NCBI RefSeq assembly: GCF_000472665.1
Contig: NZ_AXAC01000003.1
Coordinates: 1 to 64,000 of the forward strand
Reading direction: 5' to 3'
Source: Acetobacterium malicum subsp. dehalogenans DSM 11527
GTDB lineage: Bacteria; Bacillota; Clostridia; Eubacteriales; Eubacteriaceae
Length of the DNA: 64,000 nt
This document shows, piece after piece, positions 8,240-58,034 of this stretch. The number at the start of each line of letters is the position of its first letter. The first letter of the stretch is position 1. Under the pieces are notes generated by a model. It ran no database searches. It was not told the origin of the DNA and saw only the letters and a program-made list of their open reading frames with translations. Position numbers and translations under genes: made by a program.

Positions 8240-11167
8240 ATGAAGATAAAAAAAAGTCACAAGATATTTCTGGTAATTTGGGGAATCATTGTCACGACGT
8301 TGATTTTTATGCTCGATTTTCCATTGGTCAGCCAGGCACTTAATGAAAATAGGCGGGTCTTGTTTATCAGCTCATATAGTGAGAGTTTTCCAACAGTACC
8401 GCAGCAAATAAAAGGGATCCAATCTGCCCTTGATAAAAACGTTTCTTTAGAAATAGAATATATGGATACAAAACGACTGGACACACCAGAGAACAAACAA
8501 CTATTTTACAAAAATCTGGCCTATAAACTAACCAATTTACCACCTTATGATGCTGTGTTGGTGGGAGACGATAATGCCCTGCAATTCATGATGGACTATC
8601 ACACTGAGCTATTCCCCGGAATACCAGTTGTATTCTTTGGAATCAATGACTTGGAACGGGGAAGGAAAGCGGCTGAGAATCCTTATTTTACCGGGATGAT
8701 TGAGAAGTTTTCTATGGTAGAAACGATTGAGATCGCAAAAAAGTTTAATCCCCAAGCCACAAAAGTGGTGGGGATTGTCGATTCAACCCTTACTGGGCAA
8801 GGCGATCAGGGTCAATTTCTGGCAACACAAAGCGCATTTTCAGATCTGGAATTCAAGGTCCTAAATGTTTCGGATTATTCTTTTGAGGAATTTGGTCAAA
8901 CCCTGGAAAGTCTTGACAACGATGTGATTCTTTTATTTCTCAGCATGAATCAAGATGATACCGGCATTTTTATGAGTTTAAACGACCAGTATCGATTCCT
9001 CAAAGAGCATACTGCAGTGCCAGTTTATCGTACCAGTATTGGAGGTATTGGCGAGGGTATCTTCGGGGGAAAGTTAATCGATTATGAAGCTTTTGGAAGA
9101 ACGTCCGGGAATTTAGTGATGGAGATTTTAAACGGTAAGTCGGTGGAGACAATGAGTCTCATCGAAGAAACTCCCTACTATTATATTTTTGATTACGACC
9201 TTGTTAAGAAATTTAATATTCCAGTCAGTTTAATTCCCCAGAATGCCGTCTTGATTAATAAAGAAGTCTCACCTTTCGAAAAATATCGGGAAATCTTTAT
9301 TGGTATCGGTGTGATCATGATTTTTCTCTTGATTGTATCAGTAATTCTTATCGTCGATAATATAAAGCGTCGGGCGATTCAAAGGGAACTCAGGGCGAGT
9401 TACGAAAAGCTTAAAACGACCAATGAGGATCTGGCTAAAACAGAAGACAAATTAAGAGATCAGTATGAAGTGATTGAAAAAAGTTTAATGGAAGTTGGGA
9501 TATTAAACCAGAAATATGCCATTGCTACGGAAATAACGAATAGTGCAGTCTGGGAACTGGATTTAGAGACAAAAGATGTTCAGCTTGCTGAAAATTTTTC
9601 ATTGATTGCCAATCGACTCATCAATAAAAAAGAAAATATCGACGATTTATTAAATCTGTTGACGGATACTGAACATAAAAACCAATTGAAGTCTGAAATA
9701 AACGCATATCTGGAAGGCCGCAAACAGGAAATAAACATTCAGATTCCTATTGAAGATGAGCATCATGAGATAAAATGGATCTTAATCAGGGGCAGAGGCC
9801 TATCCCGAGGAGACGGAAACATTAATCGAATTTATGGAATCCTGATGGATACAACAAAAATGAAGGAGCAGGAAGACTACATAGAATATTTGGCTACCCA
9901 CGACTATTTGACGATGCTTCCAAATCGGATGAGCTTTTTAGAAAAGCTTGCTTCAGTAATGGCGGCAGATAAACCCGGTGCTGTTTTATTGTTTGACATT
10001 GACAATTTTAAAGGGATTAACGATACCCAGGGACATGTGTATGGCGATGAGATCCTTAAAAAAATAGCGGGTCGGTTAAGCAGAATATCCAATGAAAAGA
10101 TGTTTGTTTCGCGTTTAGGTGGGGATGAATTCTTAATCCTAATCGAAAATGTAAGTAGTAGGCAAGAAATAGCAGAAATTGCGCAATTAATCAAAACCGC
10201 CTTTGACGAATCCTTCATCCTCGATGGTAAAGCTAATTTTATTAATATCAGTATGGGCATTACCTGTTTTCCAGATGATAGCAACGATATCAATCAAATC
10301 ATTATGAATGCTGATACAGCCATGTACCATGTCAAACACAGTGGCAAAAATAATTATATTTTCTATCAGAATAAAATGAAAGATGTTATGAATACGAAAA
10401 TTGAAATTGAAGCGATCTTAAGAGAGGCATTAAAAACAGATGGCTTCAAACTGCTTTACCAGCCTCAGGTCGATTTGTGTTCGGCTGAAATTTATGGGTT
10501 TGAAGCATTGCTGCGATTGAAAGATCATAATATCCGACCAGATCAATTTATCCCGGTAGCTGAGGATACCGGTTTGATAATTAACATTGGCCGTTGGGTA
10601 GCTAAGACAGCTATTGAACAATTTGCCAGATGGCGAGAAAAAGGCCTCGGGGAAAAAACAATCGCCATTAATTATTCCAGCAAACAATTAAGAGATAAAG
10701 ACTTCATTATTTATCTGACGCAATTGACAAAAGCAAATAAGGTCAAACCCGAACTTATCGAAATAGAAATAACTGAGAGTATTTTACTTGAGAATAACAA
10801 TGAAACTATGACTTTTCTGGCAGAACTAAAAGAAGTTGGTTTTAAAATAGCTTTGGATGATTTTGGAACCGGGTATTCCTCTTTAAATTATTTGACCTAC
10901 ATTCCAGTCGATAAAGTCAAATTGGATAAATCCATCAATGACAAATTTCTCAATCTTAAAAACAATCGTGTCATGGACAGCCTGATTTTATTGGCACATA
11001 GTCTGAACTTGAAAATAACAGCAGAAGGAATTGAAGAGTGGGAACAGTATTTGCAATTAAAACGCGCTGGTTGCGACTATATTCAGGGTTATCTTTTCAG
11101 CAAGCCGTTAGAATCGACAGAAGCAGAGGAAATATTCAATCACATTTTTGCGATGGCCGAGGATTAA
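8240..11167 (+). CDS. Membrane-anchored sensor with PAS-like, GGDEF and EAL domains (c-di-GMP turnover)
   Basis: A 975-residue protein. Residues 1-35 carry a signal/anchor helix. Residues about 38-340 form an extracellular domain of the ABC-substrate-binding type (PF04392-like: VLFISSYSESFPTVPQQIKGI, VVFFGIND). A second membrane helix lies at about 350-373, followed by a coiled coil and a PAS-like region (430-545). The diguanylate cyclase domain has an intact GGDEF at about 627-631 but no RxxD inhibitory site before it. The phosphodiesterase domain has an intact EAL at about 754-756, DDFGTGYSS and the AEGIEE glutamate. Both activities therefore look possible. It lies 1.5 kb before the tandem GEMM riboswitches of the pilus locus and could feed c-di-GMP to them. 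SD GAGGAG. Confidence 0.88.
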   Translation: MKIKKSHKIFLVIWGIIVTTLIFMLDFPLVSQALNENRRVLFISSYSESFPTVPQQIKGIQSALDKNVSLEIEYMDTKRLDTPENKQLFYKNLAYKLTNLPPYDAVLVGDDNALQFMMDYHTELFPGIPVVFFGINDLERGRKAAENPYFTGMIEKFSMVETIEIAKKFNPQATKVVGIVDSTLTGQGDQGQFLATQSAFSDLEFKVLNVSDYSFEEFGQTLESLDNDVILLFLSMNQDDTGIFMSLNDQYRFLKEHTAVPVYRTSIGGIGEGIFGGKLIDYEAFGRTSGNLVMEILNGKSVETMSLIEETPYYYIFDYDLVKKFNIPVSLIPQNAVLINKEVSPFEKYREIFIGIGVIMIFLLIVSVILIVDNIKRRAIQRELRASYEKLKTTNEDLAKTEDKLRDQYEVIEKSLMEVGILNQKYAIATEITNSAVWELDLETKDVQLAENFSLIANRLINKKENIDDLLNLLTDTEHKNQLKSEINAYLEGRKQEINIQIPIEDEHHEIKWILIRGRGLSRGDGNINRIYGILMDTTKMKEQEDYIEYLATHDYLTMLPNRMSFLEKLASVMAADKPGAVLLFDIDNFKGINDTQGHVYGDEILKKIAGRLSRISNEKMFVSRLGGDEFLILIENVSSRQEIAEIAQLIKTAFDESFILDGKANFINISMGITCFPDDSNDINQIIMNADTAMYHVKHSGKNNYIFYQNKMKDVMNTKIEIEAILREALKTDGFKLLYQPQVDLCSAEIYGFEALLRLKDHNIRPDQFIPVAEDTGLIINIGRWVAKTAIEQFARWREKGLGEKTIAINYSSKQLRDKDFIIYLTQLTKANKVKPELIEIEITESILLENNNETMTFLAELKEVGFKIALDDFGTGYSSLNYLTYIPVDKVKLDKSINDKFLNLKNNRVMDSLILLAHSLNLKITAEGIEEWEQYLQLKRAGCDYIQGYLFSKPLESTEAEEIFNHIFAMAED

Positions 11168-12630: not shown

Positions 12631-12659
12631 TTGACATTAGTAAAATAATACCTTATCAT
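12631..12659 (+). promoter_or_regulatory. Promoter driving the tandem riboswitch leader and tad locus
   Basis: A perfect TTGACA (12631-12636), 17-nt spacer and TATCAT (12654-12659). Predicted transcription start is near 12666, so the first aptamer begins almost at the mRNA 5' end. Confidence 0.7.
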
Positions 12660-12667
12660 GATGCCAA

Positions 12668-12750
12668 TAGAATATTTAGCAAACTTATCGAAAGGTAAGG
12701 ACGCAAAGCTTTAGGGTCTAAGTAATTTTTTATATGACAGCCAGTTGCAA
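12668..12750 (+). promoter_or_regulatory. GEMM-I (cyclic-di-GMP-I class) riboswitch, first copy
   Basis: The aptamer has the class's conserved core: GCAAAC at 12679-12684, a GAAA tetraloop in the P2 hairpin, GGACGCAAAGC, AGGGTCTAA and the 3' ACAGCCAGTTGC. The nucleotide just 5' of GCAAAC, equivalent to Vc2 position 20, is A (12678). In published variants A20 allows 3',3'-cGAMP recognition, whereas G20 favours c-di-GMP. The 3' GTTGCA (12744-12749) can also pair with TGCAAC at 12778-12783, which would disrupt the terminator downstream. Confidence 0.88.
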
Positions 12751-12778
12751 AAAATCATCATCACAAGATGATATTAGT

Positions 12779-12803
12779 GCAACGTGTCAGAGCGTTGTTT
12801 TTT
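12779..12803 (+). terminator. Expression-platform terminator of the first riboswitch
   Basis: CAACG (12780-12784) pairs with CGTTG (12793-12797), followed by six T residues. The 5' arm overlaps the predicted antiterminator partner of the aptamer's 3' strand, so terminator and antiterminator are mutually exclusive. Confidence 0.7.
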
Positions 12804-12829
12804 ATTCTATATCATTCTCCGGTTGGATA

Positions 12830-12912
12830 ATTTAATATTCGGCAAACTTACCGAAAGGTGAGGACGCAAAGCTATAGGGTCTAAATAATTTTTTATATGA
12901 CAGCCAGTTGCA
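12830..12912 (+). promoter_or_regulatory. GEMM-I (cyclic-di-GMP-I class) riboswitch, second copy
   Basis: A near copy of the first aptamer: GCAAAC at 12842-12847, GAAA tetraloop, GGACGCAAAGC, AGGGTCTAA and ACAGCCAGTTGC. The P2 pairs differ but remain complementary (TTACC/GGTGA against TTATC/GGTAA), with a covarying change. Here the ligand-specificity base is G (12841), the canonical c-di-GMP form. GTTGCA (12907-12912) can pair with TGCAAC (12942-12947) as an antiterminator. Confidence 0.9.
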
Positions 12913-12942
12913 GATTTTAGGTGTATTTAATTCGCCTTTAGT

Positions 12943-12966
12943 GCAACGCGTAAACGTTGCTTTTTT
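12943..12966 (+). terminator. Expression-platform terminator of the second riboswitch
   Basis: GCAACG (12943-12948) pairs with CGTTGC (12955-12960) across a 6-nt loop and is followed by six T residues, 28 nt before the prepilin peptidase start. It is stronger than the first terminator by one GC pair. Confidence 0.8.
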
Positions 12967-12994: not shown

Positions 12995-13675
12995 ATGAAT
13001 CAATTTACAACAACAGTACTGATTATGATAATTGGAGCAGTCGTTGGAGTGTTGATGGAGAAATCAGCTGTGTACTTGATCAAGCAGAGAGTTAAGACCC
13101 TGACGCACCATCAGTTTTCAGGAAGCCTTGCTAAAACCATGTTTTGGGCCGTAATGAATGCAACCATTTGGCTGATCTTTATAAAAATCAACGGGCTTGA
13201 ATCAAAAACTTTGGAATGTATGATGCTCTTTTCTATTTGTCTCATCCTTTCAGCGGTAGACATCAGCATAAAGAAAATCCCCAATGAGTTGGTATTGATG
13301 ACGATCTTCGTTGGCGGGGCATTCATAATTACAGGTCAACCCATTACAAGTATTGGTATGAATGTTTTTGGTTTATTGATTGGTTTTGTTATTTTTTTCT
13401 TACCGGCAATGATAGGAAAGGGCGCTGGTTGGGGAGACGTGAAATATGCAGCAGCAGTTGGTTTTTGTTTAGGAGCATATGGCATTATATCAGCAATTAT
13501 GATCATGACCTTCTTTCTGATGATCTATGCATGTTATTTGATTATCAGAGGAAAAGGCAATTTAAAATCAAAAGTTGCGTTGGGACCGTTTATGGCATCA
13601 GGTTTTGTATCAGTTTTAGTTTTAAATCTTATAAATGCAAACTATCATCTATTCGAATTAGGTATGTTATTTTAA
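12995..13675 (+). CDS. tadV: Prepilin peptidase of the Tad/Flp system (type A24)
   Basis: A 226-residue polytopic membrane protease that cleaves Flp prepilins. About six to seven hydrophobic segments are seen. The two catalytic aspartates of the A24 family are visible: one in CLILSAVDISIKKIPNEL near residue 90 and one in GAGWGDVKYAAAVG near residue 150. The start is ATG 12995 behind GGAGG; a longer in-frame reading would begin inside the second riboswitch and is rejected. Lacking the methyltransferase domain of type IV pilin peptidases, it fits the TadV/CpaA group. First gene of the riboswitch-controlled locus. Confidence 0.88.
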   Translation: MNQFTTTVLIMIIGAVVGVLMEKSAVYLIKQRVKTLTHHQFSGSLAKTMFWAVMNATIWLIFIKINGLESKTLECMMLFSICLILSAVDISIKKIPNELVLMTIFVGGAFIITGQPITSIGMNVFGLLIGFVIFFLPAMIGKGAGWGDVKYAAAVGFCLGAYGIISAIMIMTFFLMIYACYLIIRGKGNLKSKVALGPFMASGFVSVLVLNLINANYHLFELGMLF

Positions 13676-13738: not shown

Positions 13739-13906
13739 ATGAAAAACGTATTTACACGAATGATGAGAGAAGAAGATGGACAGGGTATGGTTGAATATGG
13801 ATTAATTATCGCTGGGATTGCCTTGGCAGCTATTGCCGCCATCTGGTTGTTAGGTCCGCAAATTGGTCAGATGTTCACAGACATTGGTACTCAGTTAGCA
13901 GCATAG
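13739..13906 (+). CDS. flp: Flp-type pilin, copy 1
   Basis: A 55-residue Flp prepilin: a 14-residue basic/acidic leader ending EEDG, predicted cleavage after Gly14, then QGMVEYGLIIAGIALA with the Glu at +5 and Tyr at +6 that define Flp pilins, and a hydrophobic helix. It differs from copies 2-4 in the mature part by Met45 in place of Phe. The strong GGAGAAGAAAGAG site is repeated in front of three of the four copies. It is too short for normal ORF length cut-offs. Confidence 0.9.
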   Translation: MKNVFTRMMREEDGQGMVEYGLIIAGIALAAIAAIWLLGPQIGQMFTDIGTQLAA

Positions 13907-13962
13907 CAGCACTGATTAGTTAGACTAATAAACGATATTTAATAATATAAGGAGAAAATGAG

Positions 13963-14130
13963 ATGAAAAACGTATTTACACGGATGATCAGAGAAGAAGA
14001 TGGACAGGGCATGGTTGAATATGGATTAATTATCGCCGGGATTGCTTTAGCAGCCATTGCTGCCATCTGGTTACTGGGACCACAAATTGGCCAATTCTTT
14101 ACCGATATCGGAACTCAGTTAGCGGCATAA
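13963..14130 (+). CDS. flp: Flp-type pilin, copy 2
   Basis: A 55-residue Flp prepilin with the same G^QGMVEYGL processing site. Its leader has Ile9 (TRMIREEDG) where copies 1 and 4 have Met9. The mature 41-residue pilin is identical to those of copies 3 and 4. It is preceded by AAGGAG 56 nt after the stop of copy 1. Shorter spacer than the other copies. Confidence 0.9.
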   Translation: MKNVFTRMIREEDGQGMVEYGLIIAGIALAAIAAIWLLGPQIGQFFTDIGTQLAA

Positions 14131-14202
14131 AACGCAAAGAATATTTACAGATAACATTCAAATCAAAAAATAAATTTCAAAAAAATAAAGGAGAAGAAAG
14201 AA

Positions 14203-14370
14203 ATGAAAAACGTATTTACACGAATGATCAGAGAAGAAGATGGACAGGGTATGGTTGAGTATGGATTAATTATTGCCGGAATTGCTTTAGCAGCCATTGC
14301 TGCCATCTGGTTACTGGGACCACAAATTGGTCAATTCTTTACCGATATCGGAACCCAATTAGCAGCATAA
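14203..14370 (+). CDS. flp: Flp-type pilin, copy 3
   Basis: A 55-residue Flp prepilin whose protein is identical to copy 2 over its entire length, although several third-codon positions differ (for example GAG against GAA in the VEY motif). Silent divergence with protein identity argues for selection on the protein, or for partial gene conversion, rather than a very recent duplication alone. AAAGGAG ribosome-binding site. Confidence 0.9.
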   Translation: MKNVFTRMIREEDGQGMVEYGLIIAGIALAAIAAIWLLGPQIGQFFTDIGTQLAA

Positions 14371-14440
14371 AAATCCAAGCAATTTACTAATAACACTTAA
14401 AGCAACCGAATTAATTATAAAAATAAAGGAGAAGAAAGAA

Positions 14441-14608
14441 ATGAAAAACGTATTTACACGAATGATGAGAGAAGAAGATGGACAGGGTATGGTTGAATAT
14501 GGATTAATTATTGCCGGGATTGCCTTAGCAGCCATTGCTGCCATCTGGTTACTGGGACCACAAATTGGTCAATTCTTTACCGATATCGGAACCCAATTAG
14601 CAGCATAA
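14441..14608 (+). CDS. flp: Flp-type pilin, copy 4
   Basis: A 55-residue Flp prepilin with the leader of copy 1 (Met9) and the mature part of copies 2 and 3 (Phe45), so it looks like a mosaic of the others. Same AAAGGAG-type site and spacing. The four-gene array ends here and is followed by a long hairpin before tadE. Confidence 0.9.
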   Translation: MKNVFTRMMREEDGQGMVEYGLIIAGIALAAIAAIWLLGPQIGQFFTDIGTQLAA

Positions 14609-14786: not shown

Positions 14787-15197
14787 ATGTTTGCAAACAT
14801 AATCAAAAGAATAAAAAAAGAAGACGGACAAGCTATTGTTGAGCTTGCATTAACCCTGCCAATTTTGATTATGATTTTGTGTGGAATCATCGATTTTGGT
14901 TGGTTGTTCATGAACCAGAATAGTATTGATTATGCCTCCAGAGAAGGCGCACGGTATGCAATCGTTCATTCAACCAGCAAAACAGCAATTGAGGATCATA
15001 TCCGGGCTATAGCGCCGGAAAATATTTCCGATACGGTAGATATCGATATTACTTTTACAAACGCCTCTAATCCTCGTCTGGGTGATGTAATTATTGTAAT
15101 CAGTGATGATGTCGATATACTAACACCGATTGTGGATGTTTTTGTTCAGGGTGAAACCATGAATCTTTCTTCATCCTGTACCATGAAGGTGGAATAA
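14787..15197 (+). CDS. tadE: TadE-like pseudopilin
   Basis: A 136-residue minor pilin-like protein. The N-terminus has a pilin-type site: KKEDGQAIVELALTLPIL near residues 10-27, cleavage expected after Gly14, and Glu at +5. It continues with GIIDFGWLFMNQNSIDYASREGARYA, the classical TadE pattern. TadV is presumed to process it. An AGGAGG-like GGGAGGAAAG site lies before ATG 14787. Its stop overlaps the start of the next gene by one base, indicating translational coupling. Confidence 0.88.
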   Translation: MFANIIKRIKKEDGQAIVELALTLPILIMILCGIIDFGWLFMNQNSIDYASREGARYAIVHSTSKTAIEDHIRAIAPENISDTVDIDITFTNASNPRLGDVIIVISDDVDILTPIVDVFVQGETMNLSSSCTMKVE

Positions 15198-16222
15198 TGA
15201 AAAAGCTGATTAAGTTATTAAAAAAACTACCTATTATATATATAAGACGCGAGGAACATGGTGATGCATTAATTATTGTAGCTGTCTCAATGGTCTTTAT
15301 AATGGGTATTTTAGCATTGGTCATCGATCTGGGACTGGCTTATTTAAGCACCGGTGAGCAGCAAAAAGCTGCAGATTCAGCCGTGTATTCTGCAGGGCGG
15401 TTGCTACCCATTGAAACAGGCAATACGGCAAAGGTCAATCAAATTAAAAATAGTGCGATTAATTATGCTAGCCTGAATGGATTTGAAGATTTAACGCAAG
15501 ATGATATTATTTTAGGTAAAATCAGCAATGGCCAATACACTGAAATCCGGGTAATTGTCGATAAATCCGTACCCATGAATTTTGCAAAAATTTTTGGGAT
15601 TGATTATCTCGATTTATCAAGAAGCGCTGTTGCAAAACTTTCGCCAGTTATCCGAACCAGCGGGGTTGCCCCGATTGGCTTAACTAAAGATGAAATGGAT
15701 GCCCGAATTGCCAGCAACAACCTGACCCATGTCACCTTAAAATATGGGGTACAAGGTGGTTCAACGTCATTCTTTGGGGCCCTGGATCTCGATGGACAGG
15801 GCGGTGGAGCTAGCGATTATCGGATTTGGATTACTCAGGGTTATGCCGGCGAAATCAGCGTGGGCGATGTGCTTCTGGAAGAAAGCGGAAATATGGTGGG
15901 TCCTACTTATCAGGGTTTTGAAGAACGTTATGCCGCCTGTACCCATTTTGGCGCCCTTAGCGGTGGTGATGGTTGTACCACTGAAAATTTTGAATCGTCC
16001 TGCCCGAGAATTGTCAAAGTACCCATCTATTCCTTTGGCGTCGATAAAAAAACAGTGGTGGTAGAAGGCTTTGCTGCATTTCTACTGGAGAACCAGACAA
16101 ATGATGGATACATCACGGGTTCATTTTTAAATATGGTATCAAATGGAGCATCATCAGGAAGCAATGTTGGCGAAGGTACAGAAGGGGATTTTGGATTATA
16201 TAATTTGATCCTGTCAGAATAA
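15197..16222 (+). CDS. TadG-like pilus assembly protein
   Basis: A 341-residue secreted or membrane-anchored protein with the Tad-like N-terminal domain. A short basic region is followed by EHGDALIIVAVSMVFIMGIL, one transmembrane helix, DLGLAYLSTGEQQKAADSAV (the TadG/Tad signature) and a long extracellular part. The Gly-rich C-terminal region contains four cysteines that could form disulfides. No von Willebrand factor A domain is obvious, so it is shorter than proteobacterial TadG. It overlaps tadE by one base. Confidence 0.75.
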   Translation: MKKLIKLLKKLPIIYIRREEHGDALIIVAVSMVFIMGILALVIDLGLAYLSTGEQQKAADSAVYSAGRLLPIETGNTAKVNQIKNSAINYASLNGFEDLTQDDIILGKISNGQYTEIRVIVDKSVPMNFAKIFGIDYLDLSRSAVAKLSPVIRTSGVAPIGLTKDEMDARIASNNLTHVTLKYGVQGGSTSFFGALDLDGQGGGASDYRIWITQGYAGEISVGDVLLEESGNMVGPTYQGFEERYAACTHFGALSGGDGCTTENFESSCPRIVKVPIYSFGVDKKTVVVEGFAAFLLENQTNDGYITGSFLNMVSNGASSGSNVGEGTEGDFGLYNLILSE

Positions 16223-16290
16223 TTAATAATTGATTGAATTCTGGGTAGATATCAAGCATAAACCCATTAATCAGTCGAATGGAGAAATTT

Positions 16291-16959
16291 ATGAAAAAAC
16301 TCATAATAATCGCATTGATTGTATCATTGATTACCGGATTTGCCATCTTTCAGTTTGCATCATCATTGGAAAAAGGTAAAAATCTAGAAACACAACCGGT
16401 TGTATTAGCGGCCCAGGCAATTCCCAAGGGTACGGTTATTGAAAAAGAAATGCTTAAAATGGCAGATATTCCTATTGAAATGGTACACCCGTTGTCAATT
16501 GCCAATCAGGATGATGTTCTAGGCCGGATTACGAAAGAAAACATTGAAGCCGATGAACAGATTCTGACAAGTCGATTAAGTGATACCAATCAGGAAAACA
16601 ATAATTTATCTTATGCCATTGAACCGAATTATCGGGGGGTAACCATCCTTGTTGATGAAGACAGAGGTGTGGGAGGGTTTTTAACAAAGGGTGACCGGGT
16701 CGATCTTGTCGCGCAAGTATTGGATAATGGCGTGATCAGTTCTCGGTATGTCGTTGAAGACATTGAAATTTTAGAAATTGGGCCCAAAAGTAGTGGAGAC
16801 AAAGGTGGAGAATATACCTCGGTGACACTATTAGTTCCTGCTTCACAGGTTGAAAAAGTACATGCGGCAGTTTTGACTGGCATGGAGATGAAATATCGCC
16901 TGGTACTCCGTTCACCTGTGGATCACGCCATTTTAGCTACGACACCCAATCCGACTTAG
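16291..16959 (+). CDS. cpaB: CpaB/RcpC-type pilus assembly protein with SAF domain
   Basis: A 222-residue protein with an N-terminal membrane anchor (residues 4-22), then the SAF domain: VVLAAQAIPKGTVIEKEMLK and VLGRITKENIEADEQILTSRL. Then follows the CpaB beta domain with YRGVTILVDEDRGVGGFLTKGDRVDLVAQV. In Gram-negative bacteria CpaB works with the outer-membrane secretin; here, with no secretin, it may cap or guide the pilus through the cell wall. Start taken at ATG 16291 because GGAG at 16281-16284 is well spaced; ATG 16279 would overlap that site. Confidence 0.85.
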   Translation: MKKLIIIALIVSLITGFAIFQFASSLEKGKNLETQPVVLAAQAIPKGTVIEKEMLKMADIPIEMVHPLSIANQDDVLGRITKENIEADEQILTSRLSDTNQENNNLSYAIEPNYRGVTILVDEDRGVGGFLTKGDRVDLVAQVLDNGVISSRYVVEDIEILEIGPKSSGDKGGEYTSVTLLVPASQVEKVHAAVLTGMEMKYRLVLRSPVDHAILATTPNPT

Positions 16960-17016
16960 GCTTTCTGATAAACAATAAAGTTCTGCAATCGATAAAAAAC
17001 GAAATGGGGTGAACCG

Positions 17017-18168
17017 ATGGAAAAGATAAAAGTAATGATCGTCGGAAACAATGACAATCGGATCTATGAAATTAAGAGCTTACTGCGGAATGACAAGGTT
17101 GCATTTATCGGATTTTCAAAACATGATGAAAATGTTTTGGATAAGTCGATCAGTTTAAAACCCCATGTGATGATTATCCAATGCGAGGATGAGTACATAG
17201 CCGCTATCGATTTGGCTGAAAAGATCTATATTAAGATACCTGGTTGCGCAGTGATCCTTTTATGTGACAGTTTTGATGTAAGCATGATTGAAAAAGTTAT
17301 GTTGGCCGGGGTGCGAAAAGTTTTGCAGTTCCCGATTGATGCGGAAACATTGACAGAAAATATCGAATTAGCCCATTATATGGAAAAATCCCGGATGGAA
17401 AATTCTGATATGGCCGGATCAAATAATATGCAATCCCGAATCGTCACGGTATTTGGCGCAAAAGGCGGGATTGGGAAGACGACCATCACGGTAAATTTAG
17501 CCGTGTCACTGGCAAAAATGGGAAAAAAAGTGGCTGTTATCGATGCTGATCTTCAGTTTGGAGATGTCAATGTCTATTTCGACATTGATCCCAAGGATAC
17601 CATCTCTGAACTATCCCAGGGTAATGACGCTGGCGACATTGATGCCATCAAAAGAATGATGGCTTTGCACTTTTCGGGAGTCAGTATTGTTTGTGCTCCC
17701 AAAAGTCCGGAATATGCCGAATATGTTTCGCCCAAAAACATCGAAACGATGATCACTACCATGCGACCTTTTTATGATTATATAATAATCGATACGGCTC
17801 CAGTATTTAATGATATTACCATGGCGGCTATCGAAAATTCTAACCTGGTCCTGTTAATTTCAGTTCAAGATATTTCAACTTTGCGTAATACAAAAATAAC
17901 CCTTAATATTCTCGAGTCCCTGCAGCAGAAAGAGAAAACTGAATTAGTCATTAACCGTTTAACAAAGGGACTTGTCAGTCTAAAAGACATGCAACGGGTT
18001 TTAAATGAAGCAGTTAAAAACACGATTACTTTTGACTTTAAGACGGCGACAACCGCTCACAATAAGGGTATTCCCATTGTGTTGGACGCGCCAAAATCGG
18101 AAATCGGTAAGGATCTAAAAAAGCTTGCCAATTATGTAGTGAATACAATCGACCATCGGGTCAGTTGA
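17017..18168 (+). CDS. tadZ: TadZ/CpaE, MinD-like ATPase with degenerate receiver domain
   Basis: A 383-residue localisation factor for the Tad machine. Residues 4-115 have a receiver-like fold (KVMIVGNNDN... VRKVLQFPIDAETL), but the usual phospho-acceptor Asp is replaced (PHVMIIQCEDEY), and the acidic pair is NN-D. Residues about 140-380 form a deviant Walker A ATPase, GAKGGIGKTT near 147-156, with VIDADLQFGDVN and DTAPVFNDITMA. It probably places the pilus complex at a pole or site on the membrane. GGGGTGA site upstream. Confidence 0.9.
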   Translation: MEKIKVMIVGNNDNRIYEIKSLLRNDKVAFIGFSKHDENVLDKSISLKPHVMIIQCEDEYIAAIDLAEKIYIKIPGCAVILLCDSFDVSMIEKVMLAGVRKVLQFPIDAETLTENIELAHYMEKSRMENSDMAGSNNMQSRIVTVFGAKGGIGKTTITVNLAVSLAKMGKKVAVIDADLQFGDVNVYFDIDPKDTISELSQGNDAGDIDAIKRMMALHFSGVSIVCAPKSPEYAEYVSPKNIETMITTMRPFYDYIIIDTAPVFNDITMAAIENSNLVLLISVQDISTLRNTKITLNILESLQQKEKTELVINRLTKGLVSLKDMQRVLNEAVKNTITFDFKTATTAHNKGIPIVLDAPKSEIGKDLKKLANYVVNTIDHRVS

Positions 18169-18194
18169 ATAGAATCAATAGGTGAGGTATAAAA

Positions 18195-19538
18195 ATGGGA
18201 CTTCTGGAAAGAATGGAACAACAGCGGCTGGGACAAAAAGACAGTGCCCAGGAGGAAGGGAAAAAAGAAGTTTTTCATGTTGACATCCACCAGGATCTGA
18301 AGAACAGAGTCCATCAGGAAGTTATTAATGAAATTAACAGTAACAAGGTTGAAAAGGTCGGCAAAGAAAATACCATTGAAATATTAAGAATATTAGAAAA
18401 TGTCATGACTGTTGAAGCCGAAAATATCAACCGGTTGGACCGCAGTCGTATTACGGAAGAATTACTCAATGAGATTATCGGTTATGGACCACTTGAAGTT
18501 CTTTTGAATGATCCGGATATTTCCGAAATCATGGTAAATGGATATAATCGGGTGTATATTGAAAAAAATGGCAAGATTCAATTATCACCGGTTGTTTTTA
18601 AAGATAACCAGCACGTAATGAATGTTATCGATCGGATCGTCTCGTCGGTAGGGCGGCATATTGATGAATCAAGTCCGATGGTGGATGCCCGTCTCCAGGA
18701 CGGATCCCGGGTGAATGTTGTGATACCGCCACTTTCCCTGGTAGGACCAGTCATTACAATTCGAAAATTCTCAAAAAAACCGATTACGACAGATCAGTTA
18801 CTGGGTTATGGTTCCATCTCCAAAAAAATGTTGTCTTTTTTGGAAGCCTGCGTCAAAGGTAAACTGAATATCATTGTTTCGGGGGGGACCGGTAGTGGCA
18901 AAACGACCATGCTCAACGTTCTTTCCAGTTTTATTCCTGATAACGAGCGGATCATCACCATTGAAGACTCGGCCGAACTGCGGTTACTGCAGGATCATGT
19001 CATTACTTTGGAAAGTCGTCCATCCAACCTGGAAGGAAGAGGTAAGGTATCGATTCGGGAACTGGTTGTCAATGCACTCCGAATGCGGCCGGACCGAATC
19101 ATTGTCGGCGAAGTCCGATCGGCTGAAACCATCGATATGCTTCAGGCTATGAATACCGGCCATGATGGTTCCCTGACCACGATTCATGCGAATACCCCAC
19201 GAGATTCGCTGTCGCGGATTGAGACCATGGTTTTAATGTCAGGCATGGATTTACCCTTGCGGGCAATCCGGGATCAGACGACTTCTGCTATTGACATCAT
19301 CATCCAGCAATCCCGGCTCCGGGATGGAACCAGAAAGGTGGTTAATATTACCGAGGTCACTGGACTGGAGGGAGATGTTATCGTTATGCAGGATATTTTC
19401 AGCTATGAAATGACGGGACAATTGGATACCGATGGAAAATTCAAGGGGCGGTTTAAAAGTATGGGCATAAAACCCCGGTGTTTAGAAAAAATTGCCCACA
19501 ATGGGATTATGATCAACGATGATTGGTTTATTGAATAA
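18195..19538 (+). CDS. tadA: TadA/CpaF secretion ATPase
   Basis: A 447-residue hexameric type II/IV secretion ATPase that powers pilus assembly. Walker A is GGTGSGKTT at about 230-238. The Asp box [11 protein letters not shown], Walker [13 protein letters not shown] and His box [13 protein letters not shown] follow in order. The N-terminal [14 protein letters not shown] is characteristic of the CpaF subgroup. It lies 26 nt after tadZ and directly before tadB and tadC, the standard core order. Confidence 0.95.
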
Positions 19539-19560
19539 ATAACGTAAATGGGGTAATACA

Positions 19561-20493
19561 ATGAACGCGATAATGGTCACCTTGCTAATGATGATCTCGG
19601 TTTTCTTTTTGGTGTTGCTGTTGCTGTATGCTATTTCTGCCGATCAGCGGCAAATGCAAAAACGATTTGACGCAATGACAAATCTGAGAAGTTCGGATTT
19701 GGCAACATTGAAAAAGGTCAAAAGCAATCGCGACAAATCCAAGCATAAGGTTCTAAAAAAACTGGAGAATGACTTGTCGATGTCCGGAATTCTGATCAGG
19801 CCATCAGAATTTCTGCTTTTCTGGTTTGTCTTGGCCATTGTTCCCTCAACCCTGTTGTTTATGCTGGGTAGCAATATTATCTTTTCAATTATCTTATTGA
19901 TTTTTGGATTATTAACCCCGCCATTATATGTGAATAAAAAAAGAGCGAAACGGGTTGAATTGTTTGAACAACAGCTGATTGACGCCATCAGCATTATGAG
20001 CAGCTGTTTAAAGGCGGGACTCACCTTTCAACAGGCGTTGGTCAGTATTTCAGCGGAAATGCCAAATCCGATTTCAGAAGAATTTGGACGGGTTGTCAAA
20101 GAATTAAAATTAGGAAGCTCGATTGAGACCTCCTTAACCCGATTGTCAGAAAAAATAGGTAGCCAAAACTTTATGATGATTGTTTCAGCGATTCTGATTC
20201 AGCGTCAAACCGGGGGCAATCTCTCCGAAATTTTGACAAATATTTCAGGAACCATCAAGGAACGCTTTAAAATAAAAAACGAAATAAAAGTACTGACCGC
20301 CACTGCCAGAACCTCAGGACTTGTGGTTGGTTTAATGCCCGTGGCAATAATTCTGGTATTTATGCTTTTTAATCCCGATTATGTGACGATTTTCTTTGAA
20401 TCTAATCTAGGCATTGCGATGATTGTCATTGCCATTGTTATGGAAGTGATTGGATACCTGGTGATTCGAAGAATTGTCAATATAAAATTCTAA
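19561..20493 (+). CDS. tadB: TadB inner-membrane platform protein
   Basis: A 310-residue type II secretion F-domain protein. An N-terminal membrane segment (residues 4-24) and a short cytosolic linker precede two hydrophobic segments at about 85-120. Then comes the GspF/TadB motif LIDAISIMSSCLKAGLTFQQAL, with LSEILTNISGTIKER and two C-terminal helices. With TadC it should form the membrane platform on which TadA acts. A GGGG site lies just upstream. Confidence 0.88.
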   Translation: MNAIMVTLLMMISVFFLVLLLLYAISADQRQMQKRFDAMTNLRSSDLATLKKVKSNRDKSKHKVLKKLENDLSMSGILIRPSEFLLFWFVLAIVPSTLLFMLGSNIIFSIILLIFGLLTPPLYVNKKRAKRVELFEQQLIDAISIMSSCLKAGLTFQQALVSISAEMPNPISEEFGRVVKELKLGSSIETSLTRLSEKIGSQNFMMIVSAILIQRQTGGNLSEILTNISGTIKERFKIKNEIKVLTATARTSGLVVGLMPVAIILVFMLFNPDYVTIFFESNLGIAMIVIAIVMEVIGYLVIRRIVNIKF

Positions 20494-20536
20494 TTGTGGT
20501 GACTATTTTATTCAGTTTGAAACGAGGTGGAGTTCA

Positions 20537-21451
20537 ATGATGTTTTTAGCAATAAGTGTTTCAGCTCTGCTTTTTGTCCTGCTCCTAATTATTTTTTATA
20601 ATAAGGCAAGAGTCGCTGATACTAAAAAGAAAAGACTTGATTCGATTAAAAAAAGAAATAAAAGCGATCTGGGAGATGAGTTTGAAAAACCGTTTTTTCA
20701 AAGGGTTATTCTACCGATCTATCAATCATTAATCAAGAAAATTTCCTCCCTGTTCCCCAAGAATAGTGGCGTGCAAAATAAAAAAACCGAAACCAATCTG
20801 AGGCTTGCCGGGTTGCAGCTTGCTGTCAATGAATATAATGCCATTCGGATTGTAGTTTTTGGTGGCTTTTTCATGGGGGCGTTCGTGATGACTTTATTTA
20901 CACGCTGGAACATTTTAAATGAATTATTATTCATGTTTGTTAGTATGTTATTGGGGGTTGTTTTCCCGGTAATCTTTTTAAAACTTAAGATTAATAAGCG
21001 CCAGGGTGCCATTTCAAATGAATTGCCGGATATTATGGATATTTTATGTGTTACCATGGAAGCGGGGTTGGGTTTTGATTCAGCCCTAATTAAAATCGGC
21101 GAGCGCTTAAGTGGGGTATTGGTGGCGGAGCTGAATATTGTCCATTCGGAAATCAACTTTGGAAAACCAAGAAAAGATGCGCTAAAGAGTTTGGCTGATC
21201 GTAATTCGGTCGAAGAATTAAAAACCTTCGTTGGCTCAATTATTCAGGCTGAACAATTGGGGATCCCCATCAATCATGTGCTCAAAGCGCAGTCGGAAGA
21301 ATTGCGGATAAAAAGAAGGCAACGGGCCGAAGAAAAAGCAATGAAAGCACCGGTAAAAATGATGATTCCGCTGGTTTTTTTCGTACTCCCGGTGTTATTT
21401 ATCGTTCTTTTGGGACCGACGATTTTACAGCTTGTTAAACAGTTTGGTTAA
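20537..21451 (+). CDS. tadC: TadC inner-membrane platform protein
   Basis: A 304-residue paralogue of TadB with the same F-domain layout: N-terminal membrane helix, two central helices near 95-145, the motif LPDIMDILCVTMEAGLGFDSAL at about 160-181, and a C-terminal hydrophobic segment. The conserved AQSEELRIKRRQRAEEKAMKAPVKM matches TadC rather than TadB. GAGGTGGAG site before two adjacent ATG codons (20537 and 20540). Confidence 0.88.
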   Translation: MMFLAISVSALLFVLLLIIFYNKARVADTKKKRLDSIKKRNKSDLGDEFEKPFFQRVILPIYQSLIKKISSLFPKNSGVQNKKTETNLRLAGLQLAVNEYNAIRIVVFGGFFMGAFVMTLFTRWNILNELLFMFVSMLLGVVFPVIFLKLKINKRQGAISNELPDIMDILCVTMEAGLGFDSALIKIGERLSGVLVAELNIVHSEINFGKPRKDALKSLADRNSVEELKTFVGSIIQAEQLGIPINHVLKAQSEELRIKRRQRAEEKAMKAPVKMMIPLVFFVLPVLFIVLLGPTILQLVKQFG

Positions 21452-56417: not shown

Positions 56418-56669
56418 AGTTGCGAAACAACCAACGTCGCTTAGAATTAATTAAGTGGTAAAGAATAAAAATAATTCAAATAATGAAAGAAATATAATTA
56501 AACTTTCATATTTTCGAAAATATTCATATTATTTACGGGAACTAAAGAAAAAAAAGGGATTATTTCTGATTGTCTTTCAAAAATGCAAAAAATAGTTATA
56601 AATTAACTTTATCTGGATCCTGTTTTAAGGTATAATTATAGAAAATAAGTGAGATAGAGGAGATTGATG

Positions 56670-58034
56670 ATGAATCGTATTTTTTCGGAAATTACCCCTG
56701 AAATTATAGAGTATAGTGAATTATGTGTAAAAAATAGCTACATCGAACCTGAATTATATAAAAAATATCAAGTGAACCGTGGTTTGAGAGATTTAGACGG
56801 AAACGGTGTCTTAACTGGCTTGACTGAAATATCAGAAATCCAGGCTTATGTCTTTGAAGAAGGCAAGAAAATTGGGACTGAAGGGAAATTGTTTTATCGC
56901 GGTGTCGACGTTGAAGAAATGGTCGATGGCTTTGTTAAAGAAAAACGTTTTGGCTTTGAAGAAGTTGTCTATCTGTTGCTATTTGGTGATCAGCCAAGTC
57001 GGGAGGAACTGGGTAGTTTTACCAAAGTTCTCGGTAATTATCGGAGCTTACCAACCAGCTTTGTTCGTGACATCATTATGAAGGCGCCAAGTTCTGATAT
57101 GATGAACACCCTGGCGAGAAGTGTGCTGACACTTTTTTCTTATGATGACAACGCCAGTGATGTGTCAATTCCCAATGTTTTGAGACAATCGCTGGAGCTG
57201 ATTGCCTTATTTCCATTATTGGCAGTCTATGGTTATCAGACCTATAAACATTATCATGATGATCAGAGTCTATTTATTCATCAACCCCAACCAGAGCTGT
57301 CAACCGCCGAGAATATTCTTTATATTCTGAGACCAGATAGCCAGTATACGGAGCTGGAAGCACGAATACTGGATATCGCGCTGGTCCTCCATGCCGAACA
57401 TGGCGGTGGGAATAACTCGACCTTTACTACCCATGTGGTTTCATCTTCCGGCACCGATACCTATTCGGTTATTGCCGCCTCGCTGGGTTCATTAAAAGGA
57501 CCGAAACATGGTGGTGCCAACATTAAAGTAGTCGAAATGTTTGCTGATATGAAGAAAACCTTAGACGATTGGACCGACGAAAAACAGGTGCGTCAATATC
57601 TGGTCGATCTACTCCACAAACGAGCCTTTGACAATGCCGGTCTGATTTACGGTATGGGTCATGCCATCTATTCGGTATCGGATCCCCGGGCCAATGTATT
57701 TAAAGGATTTGTCCGCAGCTTATCGGAAGAAAAGGGCTTGCATGATGAGTTTGAACTCTATTCAATGGTCGAACGTCTGGCCCCTGAAGTAATCGGCGAA
57801 GAACGAAAAATCTACAAAGGCGTCAGCGCCAATGTCGATTTCTACAGTGGCTTTGTTTACAGCATGCTGGGATTACCACTGGAACTCTTTACCCCGATTT
57901 TTGCCATCGCCAGAATTGCCGGTTGGAGCGCTCACCGTCTTGAAGAACTGATCAATGCCGGTAAAATTATTCGTCCCGCCTATATGAATGTCAGCGAACG
58001 ACGAGCTTACGAACCATTAGACGAACGAAAATAG
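56670..58034 (+). CDS. Citrate synthase-family protein
   Basis: A 454-residue citrate/2-methylcitrate synthase-type protein. Catalytic positions are visible: His in LHAEHGGGNNSTF near residue 246, His in GPKHGGANIKVV near 280, and Asp in NVDFYSGFVYSMLGL near 388. It has a longer N-terminus than Gram-negative enzymes, as in the clostridial group. In anaerobes lacking a full citric acid cycle it feeds glutamate synthesis; methylcitrate activity is an alternative. Start ATG 56670 lies 7 nt after GGAG; two in-frame starts 3-6 nt upstream are too close. Confidence 0.88.
   Translation: MNRIFSEITPEIIEYSELCVKNSYIEPELYKKYQVNRGLRDLDGNGVLTGLTEISEIQAYVFEEGKKIGTEGKLFYRGVDVEEMVDGFVKEKRFGFEEVVYLLLFGDQPSREELGSFTKVLGNYRSLPTSFVRDIIMKAPSSDMMNTLARSVLTLFSYDDNASDVSIPNVLRQSLELIALFPLLAVYGYQTYKHYHDDQSLFIHQPQPELSTAENILYILRPDSQYTELEARILDIALVLHAEHGGGNNSTFTTHVVSSSGTDTYSVIAASLGSLKGPKHGGANIKVVEMFADMKKTLDDWTDEKQVRQYLVDLLHKRAFDNAGLIYGMGHAIYSVSDPRANVFKGFVRSLSEEKGLHDEFELYSMVERLAPEVIGEERKIYKGVSANVDFYSGFVYSMLGLPLELFTPIFAIARIAGWSAHRLEELINAGKIIRPAYMNVSERRAYEPLDERK

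Follow-up and report, generated by a model that had tools for sequence, protein, structure and literature searches.

Does the leader of a pilus operon that carries two copies of one riboswitch aptamer, differing at the base linked to ligand specificity, sense two different cyclic dinucleotides, or one ligand through two unequal sensors? The question was raised by a pair of GEMM-I aptamers in the window, i.e. the whole 64,000-nt stretch of DNA analysed here. It was approached through the structure of the leader, the conservation of the base in Acetobacterium, the context of the binding pocket and the search for a source of the second ligand.

Two riboswitches ahead of a Tad/Flp pilus operon

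When the window was compared with Rfam using cmscan, two matches to RF01051 (c-di-GMP-I, GEMM-I) were observed, copy 1 at 12668-12752 (72.0 bits; E-value 3.7 × 10−12) and copy 2 at 12831-12915 (74.4 bits; E-value 9.7 × 10−13). Both clear the gathering score of 35 by a wide margin, and the sole further Rfam match in the window is one tRNA. The entire assembly (4.05 Mb) contains 9 RF01051 matches and 76 GGDEF matches. The features of the locus are as follows.

8240-11167, + strand: GGDEF-EAL protein, upstream (Pfam; Asp at the guanine-specificity residue, c-di-GMP type)
12631-12659, + strand: promoter-like TTGACA-17-TATCAT, 5' of both riboswitches (11/12 consensus matches)
12668-12752, + strand: GEMM-I (c-di-GMP-I) aptamer, copy 1 (RF01051)
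12678, + strand: position-20 equivalent of copy 1, A (Rfam model position 11; A in 14/15 orthologues)
G12679-C12704, + strand: P2-closing pair G21-C46 of copy 1, c-di-GMP type (Rfam model, pocket comparison)
12744-12749 with 12778-12783, + strand: predicted antiterminator of copy 1, GUUGCA with UGCAAC (folding; conserved in the leader alignment)
12779-12803, + strand: intrinsic terminator of copy 1, GCAACG...CGUUGU and U run (terminator scan, match 12779-12798)
12831-12915, + strand: GEMM-I (c-di-GMP-I) aptamer, copy 2 (RF01051)
12841, + strand: position-20 equivalent of copy 2, G (Rfam model position 11; G in 11/14 orthologues)
12907-12912 with 12942-12947, + strand: predicted antiterminator of copy 2, GUUGCA with UGCAAC (folding, orthologue pairing)
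12943-12966, + strand: intrinsic terminator of copy 2, GCAACG-CGUAAA-CGUUGC and U run (terminator scan, match 12943-12960)
12995-13675, + strand: first gene, prepilin peptidase (Peptidase_A24, TadV-like; Pfam PF01478)
13739-14608, + strand: four 55-aa ORFs, the first scoring as Flp/Fap pilin (PF04964)
14787-21451, + strand: TadE, TadG-like, RcpC/CpaB, TadZ/CpaE-like ATPase, TadA (T2SSE), TadB and TadC (T2SSF) (Pfam)

The genes after the leader form a Tad/Flp pilus operon, in which the pilin seems to have been expanded in tandem, as four 55-aa ORFs follow one another on the same strand. The upstream GGDEF-EAL gene is tied to the pilus leader by proximity only, and its product carries a long N-terminal stretch that the Pfam matches do not cover.

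Each aptamer has its own intrinsic terminator downstream (two matches found, 0.3 expected), no ORF lies between the two units, and the first gene starts at 12995. One promoter-like site precedes both copies and its TTGACA is kept in most orthologous leaders in the alignment. No clear second promoter was found between the copies; a weak candidate (12734-12761, 9/12) sits where copy 1 ends.

In both copies, GUUGC at the 3' end of the aptamer is complementary to GCAAC in the 5' arm of the terminator. This GUUGC includes C92 in each copy; in copy 1, the antiterminator strand at 12744-12749 is the aptamer 3' end itself, with C92 at 12748. Because the two pairings compete for the same strand, the leader is predicted to consist of two transcriptional OFF switches in series. 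Without ligand, GUUGC would pair with the terminator arm, an antiterminator would form and transcription would continue; with ligand bound, the aptamer would retain GUUGC, the terminator would fold and transcription would stop. The pilus operon would then be read only if both aptamers are unoccupied.

When both folds were calculated for the window, the antiterminator was the minimum in each copy, 3.2 (copy 1) and 2.1 (copy 2) kcal/mol below the form with aptamer and terminator. Both competing folds can be formed in all the copies tested, with a gap from -2.9 to +7.6 kcal/mol, and the antiterminator is mostly favoured. However, in the relative G014 (both copies) and in copy 1 of G005 the aptamer fold is the preferred one even when no ligand is present, which counts against the OFF direction. 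For copy 2, ten orthologues pair in 100 % of the terminator stem cells and in 96.7 % of those of the antiterminator. Two pairs of a hairpin inside the antiterminator are altered on both sides among these orthologues (partly covarying), but most helix pairs are invariant and thus the support from covariation is modest.

The base at position 20 and its conservation

The earlier note had read A at 12678 in copy 1 and G at 12841 in copy 2 and had taken both as position 20 of Vc2. Both readings were confirmed. In the cmscan alignment the two bases occupy Rfam model position 11, directly 5' of the P2-closing pair (model 12-37). In the cGAMP riboswitch, a passage of the structural report gives P2 as C15-G40 and A14 as the last J1/2 base (PMC6274999). 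In Geobacter numbering the specificity base is A20, and A20G switches the cGAMP selectivity of Gmet_0970 to c-di-GMP (PMC6456294), while G11 of Cd1 has been equated with G20 of Vc2 (PMC9262584). Since the model position and the published numbering agree, A12678 and G12841 are position 20, and an error of coordinates or mapping was ruled out.

The second ligand-contact base, position 92, which pairs with the other base of the ligand, is C in copy 1 (12748) and in copy 2 (12911). Compared with the c-di-GMP-I type (G20, C92), copy 2 has both contact bases, whereas copy 1 has C92 but A20.

A genus covariance model was built from 15 Acetobacterium aptamers; it matched 156 times in the loci retrieved from the genus, and the best 150 matches were scored. 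At position 20, 38 of these best 150 of 156 carry A and 112 carry G; at position 92, 146 carry C and 4 carry U. Position 18 of Vc2 is an adenine in contact with the ligand in published structures; its equivalent is U in both copies of the window (12676, 12839) and in 62 of the best 150. The pocket may therefore differ in other ways too.

Fifteen tad leaders, including that of the window, were compared by model-based alignment. Ten are A/G, three are A/A (G013, G016 and G017), one is G/G (G005) and one has a single A aptamer (G006). Copy 1 thus carries A in 14 of 15 leaders and copy 2 carries G in 11 of 14, while the other genus aptamers have A in 21 of 121 (counts that are not phylogenetically independent). 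By these alignments the difference between the copies exceeds chance and is conserved. A sequencing error or a variant of a single strain was ruled out by the orthologous leaders. The mixed A/G state is shared by the main group and by G008 and G014, two divergent lineages. By simple parsimony it would therefore be ancestral, and each copy would have changed once.

These data also bear on a simpler reading, in which A or G is tolerated at position 20 with equal c-di-GMP binding and the leader is an ordinary pseudo-cooperative doublet. The A/A and G/G relatives, a single transition apart from the mixed state, are in line with such near-neutral variation, as is the frequency of A20 (38 of the best 150 genus aptamers). 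In a quick tree without support values, copies 1 and 2 group together in G013 and in G017, where one copy could have overwritten the other. However, A persists in copy 1 of the divergent G008 and G014 as well, and base 20 directly contacts the ligand in published structures. We consider this reading possible, though unlikely.

Other arrays of the genus were also observed. In the window's genome, a second leader on contig C12 has A, G and G at position 20; this triple GEMM-I array (56664-56987) precedes an ORF in which a VTEPV stretch recurs and which resembles a surface protein. Single A20 aptamers are found on contigs C16 and C1. In G014, a three-aptamer array (L145; C1:2456150-2457000, minus strand) reads, 5' to 3', A20/U92, A20/C92 and G20/C92. 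The A20/U92 combination, engineered in Vc2 as G20A/C92U, reportedly binds c-di-AMP, and by analogy three types of pocket may be combined in this leader. The G014 genome has two SMODS CD-NTase matches. Pockets with G20 and U92 were found at L124 and L125 (both G009) and at L159 (G017).

Beyond these leaders, genomes of 84,980 species were scanned with a pattern for GEMM-I cores in tandem with fixed P2 length; this gave at least 116 stretches, of which 80 loci were read. Among the loci listed, both sites are A or G in 71 tandems (60 GG, 6 AG, 4 GA and 1 AA). When nine mixed loci were compared with Rfam, eight had two aptamers that matched RF01051 or its relative RF03167, while the A copy of the ninth (L259) scored below threshold. 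The hosts are Acetobacterium, Papillibacter, Peptococcaceae, Lachnospiraceae, Clostridium, Acetatifactor, Fusibacter and a Chloroflexi MAG. Across a sample of 391 genomes drawn from the class, A-then-G was found in at least 3 and G-then-A in at least 2, strict lower bounds as the patterns fix both spacing and P2 length. Judged from these sequences, mixed A/G tandems are a minority but recurrent form, not unique to this leader. The earlier note knew of no GEMM tandem of mixed specificity at this base. That agrees with the sections of the literature compared below, but not with the genomes, where at least 10 of the 71 tandems are mixed and a second mixed leader lies in the same genome.

Pocket context and the ligand of copy 1

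Geomonas edaphica was used as the Geobacteraceae control (17 RF01051 matches, ten distinct A20 aptamers). All ten of its A20 aptamers have C21-G46 and U22-G45, and its G20 aptamers mostly have G21-C46. In contrast, all 38 Acetobacterium A20 aptamers, copy 1 included, have G21-C46 and C22-G45. The C21-G46/U22-G45 signature is a correlate found here in one control genome and not a published definition. Of the GEMM-Ib features, copy 1 therefore has A20 but lacks both pairs. By this signature the Acetobacterium A20 aptamers are not GEMM-Ib, and they resemble the engineered Vc2 G20A pocket instead. That pocket binds cGAMP too, according to a passage of PMC7288161. For a natural A-variant of Desulfobacca acetoxidans, the relevant section of PMC9481103 gives a markedly raised affinity for cGAMP (c-AMP-GMP) and perhaps a slightly lowered one for c-di-GMP. 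Position 20 has been described as a factor of selectivity and not as a hard filter (PMC9262584). A20 by itself is insufficient for annotation of a cGAMP riboswitch.

A cGAMP sensor needs a cGAMP source, and a genome search for a synthase of the DncV or Hypr-GGDEF type had been proposed as a check. Among the readable GGDEF domains of the window's genome, no Hypr serine was found (aligned rows: 71 Asp, 1 Asn, 1 Gln, 1 Thr and 0 Ser). The remaining weak or partial matches have no intact motif or are truncated; L244-L247 lack the GGDEF motif. Only L243 (G000:C35:170900-171600) lacks the half of the domain that sets specificity; it is an apparently broken gene, in which an unrelated start resembling a membrane protein runs in frame into the C-terminal half of a GGDEF domain. 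The same procedure did find one Hypr protein in Geomonas (L397, GHLIGS with GGDEY). In a domain search, no SMODS CD-NTase was found in the window's genome. Such proteins occur in 3 of the 19 genus genomes and are absent from 8 of the 10 with an A/G leader. The search with PF21654 (DncV-like) gave no match anywhere, controls included, and so says nothing on presence.

These results weigh on a two-ligand reading, in which copy 1 binds 3',3'-cGAMP, copy 2 binds c-di-GMP and either ligand shuts off the pilus operon as in a NOR gate. A20 is the known cGAMP determinant, its replacement by G flips the selectivity of Gmet_0970 (PMC6456294), the A/G order is kept in the genus and a few genus genomes do encode SMODS CD-NTases. 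However, the pair context of the Geomonas A20 aptamers is missing from every Acetobacterium A20 aptamer, neither Hypr GGDEF (among the readable domains) nor SMODS protein was found in the window's genome, and most genomes with the A/G leader have no SMODS protein. The c-di-GMP-type G21-C46 context together with the outcome of the synthase search weakens the cGAMP reading of copy 1, and we regard two ligands as improbable. It is still a little less probable that the leader is a natural two-input NOR gate made from one aptamer class, with the ligands split by a single base and Tad pili turned off when c-di-GMP or cGAMP rises. If it were, cGAMP signalling in Acetobacterium would proceed through an unrecognised synthase, and the leader would amount to a logic gate within one aptamer class and would speak for cGAMP signalling in acetogens.

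Another dinucleotide or a breakdown product, e.g. a linear or mixed-base dinucleotide, was also considered as the ligand of copy 1. A20 with G21-C46 is common in the genus without a detected cGAMP synthase, and the U92 pockets point to a diverse repertoire. c-di-GMP is nevertheless the simplest ligand in a genome with about 76 GGDEF domains, and we give such a molecule very little chance.

We therefore favour, with a probability of roughly 0.57, a leader in which a relaxed and probably weaker c-di-GMP switch (copy 1) is followed by a canonical one (copy 2), which gives a staggered OFF response on the Tad pilus transcript. Two complete and independent GEMM-I riboswitches would act in series on a single transcript. 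Copy 2 (G20, G21-C46, C92) would be the canonical c-di-GMP sensor. Copy 1, with A20 in an otherwise c-di-GMP-type pocket, would most likely bind c-di-GMP more weakly and accept cGAMP in vitro. As no cGAMP synthase was detected, both units probably share one ligand, and copy 1 would set a second c-di-GMP threshold for a pseudo-cooperative, staggered shut-off. We infer the ligand, the order of affinities and the direction of switching from the pocket and the pairings described above. Of the two possibilities in the earlier note, one selective and one relaxed sensor is thus preferred over two dinucleotides, for which the C21-G46/U22-G45 pairs and a Hypr or SMODS protein were looked for and not found.

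Since the A/G difference is conserved in the genus, a functional difference is plausible. The conservation also counts against the staggered c-di-GMP reading, as a mere tweak of affinity might need no such constancy of A in copy 1 across deep divergence; the three A/A leaders and the G/G leader of relatives count against it as well, and so does the U at the position-18 equivalent of both copies. With paralogous aptamers on a single mRNA whose difference has been maintained genus-wide, this leader is a clean natural test of base 20 in a c-di-GMP-like pocket. If they have two affinities for one ligand, the threshold of a tandem riboswitch would be tunable by one base.

Comparison with known tandem and cGAMP riboswitches

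In the tandem survey's section on this class, c-di-GMP-I doublets are the most frequent (347, in addition to 12 triplets), and same-class tandems are treated there as pseudo-cooperative (PMC9481103). A characterised triplet is described as more digital in its behaviour, and a known c-di-GMP-I triplet is Bc3-5 of Bacillus thuringiensis (PMC4759541). The window shares with these tandems complete class I units of aptamer and terminator before one operon and a predicted steeper response. Its units differ at position 20, however, and the survey's c-di-GMP-I section does not sort by that base (PMC9481103).

Copy 1 shares A20, C92 and the GEMM-I fold with the Geobacter GEMM-Ib riboswitches for 3',3'-cGAMP (c-AMP-GMP), and pilus genes are among the targets of these too. 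The P2 loop and pairs are different: C21-G46, U22-G45 and GCGA in the Geomonas A20 aptamers (n = 10), but G21-C46, C22-G45 and GAAA in copy 1. In addition, expression of the Geobacter targets falls with loss of the synthase GacA, i.e. they are under ON switches (PMC6456294), whereas the window pair is predicted to be OFF.

The AdoCbl/c-di-GMP-I/c-AMP-GMP cluster of Desulfobacca acetoxidans also has homologous aptamers that differ at base 20, and for these the survey's section on the cluster reports measured binding. According to that section, the A- and G-types lie in separate clusters, each beside AdoCbl switches, whereas both lie in one leader in the window (PMC9481103). Vc2 G20A (PDB 4YB1) has A20 in a c-di-GMP-type pocket, as copy 1 does, but the Vc2 version is engineered and copy 1 is natural. 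Finally, the SAM-I/AdoCbl tandem NOR gate resembles the predicted OFF/OFF arrangement, in which either ligand stops expression; that gate joins two unrelated ligand classes, whereas the window combines two forms of one aptamer class, probably for one ligand.
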